Source: Clostridia bacterium
GTDB taxonomy: Bacteria; Bacillota; Clostridia; UMGS1810
Length of the DNA: 64,000 bases
Direction: 5' to 3'
NCBI GenBank assembly: GCA_017436905.1
Contig: JAFSCF010000014.1
Location: forward strand, 62,001 to 126,000
Positions within the stretch are counted from its first letter, which is position 1. Each line of letters starts with the position of its first letter. Below, piece by piece: positions 56,584 to 57,328 of this stretch. The position numbers and the translations under genes are program-made. Under the pieces are notes generated by a model. That model saw nothing but the letters and a program-made list of their open reading frames with translations. It did no database searches and was not told where the DNA came from.

Positions 56584-56832
56584 TTAGTGCTTTTTCAAGG
56601 GCTCTTTTCTACGGTAACTGTATACACTATCATATACTTCCTGAATGTTTTTTGTAACAGGCGCTGTTTGTATCAATCCCGTACATTCTGTTGCAGAAGC
56701 GGTACTACCCGGCAAAAAATCAGGAAAAAGTCTTCCGTCGCCGAGTTCATCGTCGTAAGAATCCGTCACATTTTCATTATTGAAAAAGGTTTTGTCATTC
56801 TCGCCCCATTTATATTTTCCTGCCTCGCTCAC
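56584..56832 (-). CDS. Small acidic protein of unknown function
   Basis: About 82 residues, starting at a GTG with GGGGG 9 bases upstream. Hydrophilic and acidic, with ENVTDSYDDELGDGRLFPDF in the middle and ECTGLIQTAPVT toward the C-terminus, then a basic RRKEPLKKH end. No transmembrane segment and no known motif. It lies between two hairpins and just downstream of the orphan ncRNA. It could be a spore or stress protein, but nothing in the sequence proves that. Confidence 0.55.
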   Translation of the reverse strand: MSEAGKYKWGENDKTFFNNENVTDSYDDELGDGRLFPDFLPGSTASATECTGLIQTAPVTKNIQEVYDSVYSYRRKEPLKKH

Positions 56833-56894
56833 TTTTTTCAACCCCCGCAAATATTTTGTGCGCCAAGCAGTTTTTTATTAAAGAAATTTTTTCA

Positions 56895-57134
56895 AAAAAA
56901 GAAGTGACCCTTAATTACTTTTTTATGTAATCAAGGGTCACTTCTGTTCACTTTTGAAATCTAGTTTCACTGTATTACCTCTCTTTCCTTGTCTGCCTTT
57001 TGCTTCGTTATCACATCTTTACATTCACACACAAAATTCATTTTCCTCTAGCGAGAACAACCTGATGTTGTTAGTTGTGTTTTCAGCAAAAGGTGAATTT
57101 TTAAATTCTCATTGGACTCTACCTTCCTTTCTTC
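56895..57134 (-). ncRNA. Orphan structured ncRNA, ~240 nt, own promoter and terminator
   Basis: A 490-bp gene-free region holds a promoter (57141-57169) and, 200 bases on, a strong minus-strand terminator: GAAGTGACCCTT (56901-56912) with AAGGGTCACTTC (56933-56944) and a seven-T run. Between them there is no credible reading frame. Read on the minus strand, possible helices include GAATTT/AAATTC, AACAAC/GTTGTT, and a long-range CCTTTTGCT with AGCAAAAGG that encloses ACACA/TGTGT. Length and independence fit a stable housekeeping-type RNA. A raiA-type or divergent 6S RNA is possible, but I cannot confirm either. It lacks recognisable SRP, tmRNA or RNase P signatures. Confidence 0.7.
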
Positions 57135-57140
57135 AACTAT

Positions 57141-57169
57141 AGTATATCAAACCACAAGGGCGTTTTCAA
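57141..57169 (-). promoter_or_regulatory. Promoter of the orphan ncRNA
   Basis: On the minus strand TTGAAA (57164-57169), 17 bp, TATACT (57141-57146). Confidence 0.75.
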
Positions 57170-57244: not shown

Positions 57245-57274
57245 TTTACAACGCAGTTTTATACATGATATAAT
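57245..57274 (+). promoter_or_regulatory. Promoter facing a nearby terminator
   Basis: TTTACA (57245-57250), 18 bp, TATAAT (57269-57274). Its start site would be near 57281, only ~12 bases before a terminator stem, giving a ~45-nt transcript with no gene. Confidence 0.45.
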
Positions 57275-57292: not shown

Positions 57293-57328
57293 AAAACGGG
57301 CATCTTTAAAAGATGCCCGTTTTTTATT
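57293..57328. terminator. Terminator of the oxidoreductase gene
   Basis: AAAACGGGCATCTT (57293-57306) with complement (57310-57323), A- and T-runs on both sides. It overlaps the stop of the gene at 57324. Confidence 0.85.

Follow-up and report, generated by a model that had tools for sequence, protein, structure and literature searches.

Bar of phage lambda is a minigene, a tiny frame behind a strong Shine-Dalgarno (SD) sequence, and in Bacillus thuringiensis a strong SD near the RNA 5' end (Stab-SD) binds the 30S subunit and blocks decay. Dual-function small RNAs such as SgrS and RNAIII also carry a short frame, which encodes a conserved, functional protein of tens of residues. On minigenes, ribosomes can reinitiate without dissociating when the SD is strong, and a mini-ORF occupied by ribosomes shields the RNA, as reported in PMC8708949, where the espADB mRNA is cited as protected by a strong SD ahead of a six-codon mini-ORF. 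Among the free-standing conserved RNAs of Clostridia, the raiA motif RNA (ModT) is described in PMC11706538 as abundant, stable and with a role in growth transition.

The RNA gene described here was found in a 64,000-nt window (the whole stretch of DNA analyzed) and carries two conserved micro-ORFs, ORF1 and ORF2, each behind a strong ribosome binding site (Table 1). A preliminary description of this DNA had reported no reading frame at this place, which was wrong; at only 3 and 10 codons, the two frames were too short to be noticed. Like Stab-SD, the RNA has a strong SD close to its 5' end, but Stab-SD is without minigene coupling and serves a long mRNA. It shares with SgrS and RNAIII a short frame carried on a small RNA, whereas the frames here have 2-11 codons and changing peptides, with a peptide start that is kept inside class A/B and is unrelated in class C and in phages. 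A search of the literature found no paper on an RNA family with this layout, and we are aware of no other family of free-standing RNAs with paired minigenes as its defining feature; judged from this search, the family appears to be undescribed and new in kind. The resemblance to lambda bar, axe-txe mg2 and the six-codon mini-ORF of LEE4 lies in the two- or three-codon frames and the strong SD. Those minigenes lie within leaders or genes, where they affect a neighbor in cis, whereas here the minigenes, usually two per RNA, belong to an RNA gene that stands free among random neighbors and has a promoter and terminator of its own.

Flanked by a Gfo/Idh/MocA-type oxidoreductase gene on one side and a small ORF on the other, the gene is outlined by the consensus-spaced promoter and the very strong terminator that had been proposed, both of which were borne out, and the -35/-10 block of the minus-strand promoter is kept in relatives. 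The earlier claim of an independent RNA gene also stands, as promoter and terminator bracket it and homologs show covariation. Its product is predicted, plausibly, to be a stable RNA.

Table 1 Features of the RNA gene and of the adjoining divergent promoter, in window coordinates.
Feature	Position	Strand	Basis or remark
Promoter TTGAAA-17-TATACT, TG before -10	57141..57169	-	10/12 matches
RNA, about 240 nt	56895..57135	-	start inferred from promoter; homologs
SD1, extended Shine-Dalgarno of ORF1	57122..57133	-	duplex of -19.7 kcal/mol with 16S tail; kept in relatives
ORF1, ATG AGA ATT TAA (MRI, stop)	57101..57112	-	relatives with early stop
Conserved helix, 5' arm CCTTTTGCT	57085..57093	-	covariation
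Small conserved hairpin TTCTC-GCTA-GAGGAA	57043..57057	-	covariation, both-sided changes in 3/5 pairs
Conserved helix, 3' arm AGCAAAAGG	56996..57004	-	covariation
SD2, ribosome binding site of ORF2, GGAAAGAGAGG	56978..56988	-	-14.6 kcal/mol; kept in relatives
ORF2, GTG start (read as Met), VKLDFKSEQK, stop	56938..56970	-	stop codon within terminator stem
Intrinsic terminator, 19 pairs + T tail	56900..56945	-	stem sequence conserved and covarying
Divergent promoter TTTACA-18-TATAAT	57245..57274	+	conserved in family
Hairpin + T tract directly behind divergent promoter	57297..57326	+	layout kept in relatives

Comparison of the whole window with Rfam 15 at gathering score gave no family match, SRP, RNase P and tmRNA included, in agreement with the preliminary failure to match these three and 6S. 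ARAGORN found no tmRNA, and permissive E-values yielded only chance matches to terminator hairpins at the element. No window match to 6S RNA (RF00013) was obtained, and a 6S identity is excluded because the true 6S gene of this genome sits elsewhere (G000:C18:39957-40152). A raiA-type RNA had been put forward as a candidate. Although raiA/ModT is likewise a free-standing conserved RNA of Clostridia (excerpt of PMC11706538), the two-minigene RNA differs from it in size, sequence and layout, and the RF03072 covariance model matched neither the window, nor the relatives, nor the class B/C loci; it matched 0 of 16 family genomes, but a control likewise matched nowhere. On the loci of 22 relatives, the sole Rfam matches beside the element were to tRNA and to a single ZTP riboswitch. 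The absence of a match combined with covariation in homologs marks a class absent from Rfam. As a separate observation, the ZMP-ZTP riboswitch adjoins one element copy (L211:626-706, plus strand).

Far from being an orphan, as it had been called, the RNA belongs to a large family of homologs. A DNA search gave matches in 10 of 60 relatives. They fall into two blocks, one made up of the promoter and the first ~35 nt, the other of the last ~110 nt, and the length of the stretch in between differs greatly. The ten aligned copies share a 5' block (AAAGGAAGGTACAGTCCAATG, with a stop within 2-3 codons) and a 3' block (AAAGAGAGG..TAAC..ATG, leading into a frame of 10 codons that stops in the terminator stem). 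Covariance model R1, covering the 3' block, matched 24 of 391 class genomes at E <= 0.001 and 19 genomes at E <= 1e-10, and its matches span seven families. Five weak R1 matches with E above 1e-6 (G008, G095, G103, G175 and G286) were rejected as terminator-only resemblance, and the model match in G011 was set aside on the same ground. The broader model R2 matched one of 398 genomes sampled across the phylum, namely the window's own. A pattern scan of GTDB genomes then extended the family to at least 120 loci; since the pattern included SD2 and the first ORF2 codons (M-L-D forced), the conservation of these parts across the loci is partly selected. From 124 matches, 122 were used (L083 and L074, whose terminators are incomplete in the DNA covered, were dropped), and removal of duplicates left 119 distinct copies.

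Titles among the matches listed name Oscillospiraceae, Faecousia, one Lachnospiraceae and unclassified Clostridia or uncultured MAGs, many of them from the ruminant gut. An isolate, Vescimonas fastidiosa MM35, has a copy between a TetR regulator and spoVAC. Carriers (20 genomes or records chosen because they have a copy) show 1 to 9 model matches per genome, some of which are reverse-strand terminator echoes, and several copies can sit within a few kb of one another. The region between the frames is variable and partly structured, about 30-550 nt long, with no fixed ORF1-ORF2 spacing. In L036 (G359) the ORF1 block occurs twice in one RNA (MYK and MYR, each followed by a stop), and in L229 the 3' block is fused straight to the upstream hairpin, which looks like the result of a deletion of the promoter region.

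ORF1 was located by its SD context and CC[AG]ATG, irrespective of the stop. Among the matches listed, a stop follows after 2-3 codons in 92/95 copies and at 9-11 in the remaining three, against 267/1504 (18%) for other ATGs in the same upstream stretches; a recognizable ORF1 context is absent from 27/122. The peptides are diverse (MRK, MYR, MG, MEE, MI) while entry and early stop are constant, so ribosome entry and stop appear to be kept rather than the peptide. Mean SD duplex energies among the matches listed were -16.6 kcal/mol for ORF1 (n=95) and -15.6 for ORF2 (n=122), compared with -8.2 for long ORFs (n=868) and -5.7 for random places (n=610), a gap whose size is partly selected because the ORF1 set was gathered via a GG-containing context and the ORF2 set via the pattern. 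The 16S tail used for these duplexes was exact in 1 of 9 searched records (Vescimonas fastidiosa). Across the window, 179 ATG minigenes have the length of ORF1, and only 2 of them are preceded by a site that reaches -14. By sequence and SD energy, ORF1 would thus be classed as a minigene, with a start, 1-3 sense codons, a stop and an SD.

At the other end of the RNA, the ORF2 stop falls exactly at codon 10 in 119/119 distinct copies of the matches listed (TGA 77, TAA 35, TAG 7) and lies 4-9 nt inside the stem, in the ascending terminator arm, in 122/122. Aligned stems carry only T, purine, purine in the stop columns, other stem columns change freely, and those beside the stop also take C-G and U-A pairs. 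Changes between TGA and TAA (G-to-A) are compensated on the opposite arm 16 times. This pattern in the stop columns, as read from the alignment, is not predicted by pure hairpin pressure. From species to species the ORF2 start shifts in frame, by exactly one codon, and it is GTG in the window; in known host copies the frame has about 7-11 codons. Copies found by the model rather than the pattern agree with the pattern set on SD2 and ORF2 but are few; they encode other peptides (e.g., MIEPNNEER, MIDPIIQ, MRSPEIHQN) and keep the stop in the stem; L217 and L223, where the frame is shifted and the stop comes later, do so too. The two-minigene architecture is well supported, and translation of the frames is predicted.

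The nested complementary segments noted earlier are present in the sequence and fared unequally as evidence of structure. Folding of all 242 nt gives z = -3.7, owing only to the terminator; for the remaining 157 nt z is -0.46, a fold matched by 66 of 200 shuffles. The observation thus holds as a gene outline, but this one sequence does not prove a structure. Relatives back the helix CCTTTTGC/GCAAAAGG, with both-sided changes in 8 of 11 pairs. Class A has 42 rows, of which 10 were left out of one alignment and 30 used in alignment A3. In these 30 sequences, helix CGCCTTTTGC/GCAAAAGG and hairpin TTCTC/GAGAA have 11 both-sided pairs and 25 such cells, a covariation score that 0 of 500 shuffles reach and that lies far above slid controls. 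The other two segment pairs did not hold: AACAAC/GTTGTT was paired in 38% of cells, with 489 of 500 shuffles equally good, and GAATTT/AAATTC overlaps the ORF1 end, where no conserved helix was seen by eye. Class A further contains two long-range helices around a CAC[AG]CGGTG core, which a motif search found in 20 of the 42 rows; 19 of these 20 core-bearing rows score above the mean of their own shuffles. The window copy is a reduced family member without this core domain.

A compact form occurs in some large phages. The ORF1 block GAAAG..AGGTAC..TCCAATG was found in 21 copies in 20 viral contigs, each with a strong promoter and an ORF1 reading MG, MGN, MV, MYR or MCR before the stop; host copies L113 and L159 have the same MG frame. 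A second frame of five codons (located in 20/21 by script, in the 21st by eye) follows 52-73 nt past ORF1, and then comes a terminator. Its residues change (MDNVA, MDSVA, MDTVA, MDRIA, MDNVT, MDNVN, MGYVF) and its codon number is constant. A DNA polymerase gene (PHROG 405) often lies behind the phage copies, and the nearest named relatives of this polymerase, at 40-42% identity, infect Enterococcus and Bacillus. In Enterococcus phage VRE9_4 and SPbeta, the known phages whose DNA polymerase is nearest, no RNA gene is annotated before the polymerase and the annotation leaves no room for one. With blastn, the L004 copy had no match in the whole phage collection and one in the plasmid collection, from Vescimonas. 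Host-type patterns in the viral contigs were discarded or empty: the class B 5' pattern matched once, by chance, inside an ordinary gene, the SD2 pattern matched once, in an ordinary gene, and the class C pattern not at all. One viral contig, L271 (IMGVR_UViG_3300028048_000121), holds two phage-form copies about 1.4 kb apart, before different genes.

We give about even chances to the reading that this is a new RNA family of Oscillospirales-like gut Clostridia, with a compact phage form, that docks ribosomes at both ends. In this scheme, 30S subunits would bind both extended SD sites, and ribosomes would start on the micro-ORFs, terminate within a few codons and initiate anew, renewed starts being proposed because the SDs are strong. 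Both RNA ends would so stay occupied by ribosomes, and the first effect would be to guard the RNA from decay at the 5' and 3' ends. Held on ribosomes, the RNA could tune translation by tying up initiating ribosomes, or the docked RNA could bring its structured middle part to them. Modulation of translation would be the likely purpose, although going from docking to this purpose is guesswork. If docking is true, this would be a natural RNA selected for ribosome entry and immediate exit, not for a product, and a type common to abundant uncultured gut bacteria and their phages. The cultured carrier Vescimonas fastidiosa makes the hypothesis testable. For annotation, a "noncoding" label can hide frames of 2-10 codons that are clearly preserved in evolution.

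The alternative that survives best, which we consider possible on the whole but unlikely, keeps the end docking as stabilization only: SDs and minigenes would be end caps protecting an ordinary trans-acting RNA that functions through its middle or by base pairing. An AAAGG-type SD-like sequence persists near the 5' end in copies without ORF1 (by eye), the class A middle domain is conserved with covarying long-range helices, and espADB, with its SD before a six-codon mini-ORF, offers a precedent for mRNA protection (cited in PMC8708949). Against this, class C and phage copies are nearly without a middle (about 30-70 nt between the frames), and a start with an early stop in 92/95 of the matches listed exceeds what SD binding needs. 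The docking reading also has a bolder version, a ribosome counterpart of 6S, in which multi-copy RNAs of gut Clostridia tie up 30S subunits on two re-initiating minigenes and large phages, taking up or donating the RNA, steer host translation; we hold this for rather improbable. Like 6S, which occupies RNA polymerase, it would be a free-standing RNA occupying a central machine, here the ribosome; the two-minigene RNA differs in having no 6S match and a separate 6S gene in the same genome.

It is still less probable that the ORF2 peptide (9-10 residues, MLDxKSEQK type) is the product, for instance a signal or regulator, with ORF1 as a regulatory upstream frame. The MLDxK start is conserved in class A/B, which could mean a functional peptide, the one-codon shift of the start stays in frame, and the majority peptide among the matches listed is M-L-D-x-K-[SN]-E-Q-K, with K at position 5 in 119/119. 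However, M-L-D was imposed by the search pattern, the amino-acid evidence at K5 is thin because the codon is AAG in 115/119 of the matches listed, position 4 is I, T or N, and positions 6-9 vary widely. Other classes combine the same layout with unrelated peptides, from MLDxK... to M[IT][DE]P... and phage MDNVA or MGYVF.

A cis-acting leader, in which ribosomes translating ORF2 across the terminator would govern read-through into the following gene, seems very improbable. The ORF2 stop in the ascending terminator arm in 122/122 of the matches listed is classic attenuation geometry, and phage copies often precede the polymerase gene. Species with runaway transcription may have terminators that overlap frames, which we count against this reading. 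The genes next to the RNA argue further against it: among the matches listed, the downstream gene is on the same strand in 60/113 and on the opposite strand in 53, the upstream gene is on the same strand in 51/106, and neighbor proteins form 88 clusters on each side, with some flanks common to close species. Neighbors are thus random in strand and identity, without the conserved co-directional downstream gene of an attenuator, and the RNA is therefore a gene of its own rather than a cis leader. In phage copies, a fresh promoter stands directly behind the terminator (by eye). Least probable of all is an untranslated ordinary small RNA whose tiny frames are chance by-products of a conserved purine-rich sequence: ORF2 nucleotide conservation is above what codon-level logic alone requires, but stop types switch with compensation, codon 10 is a stop in all and ORF1 ends early in 92/95 of the matches listed, and the phage ORF2 stays at five codons despite changed residues.

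Upstream of the RNA gene, the divergent promoter lies about 165-178 nt from ORF1 in 52 of 90 relatives vs 5.7% in shuffles, and across the family a hairpin and T tract follow immediately behind it. It is predicted to give a transcript of about 30-45 nt starting UGUUGG; in the window the hairpin would end this transcript at about 40 nt, and it may here also be the terminator of the upstream gene. One lead is antisense action, with UGUUGG of this mini-transcript possibly pairing with CCAAUG at the start codons, over only about 6 pairs. Two TTTTGYACAA-like sites recur between the two promoters. When the conserved upstream block was used to look for operators in six genomes, its matches lay at unrelated places and no regulon emerged. 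Downstream of the RNA gene, the small ORF (56584-56850, minus strand, about 82-88 aa) had no match in a Pfam search of 56584-56832 and has a same-place homolog in a genome of the same genus (L003, by eye). A gene for a HAD hydrolase has a perfect 12/12 sigma-70 promoter ahead of it, followed by an inverted repeat, CTAAAATTTACTTGGCATATTTAGGTGAATTTTAG, that resembles an operator or leader hairpin (56536-56509 and 56479-56445, minus strand).
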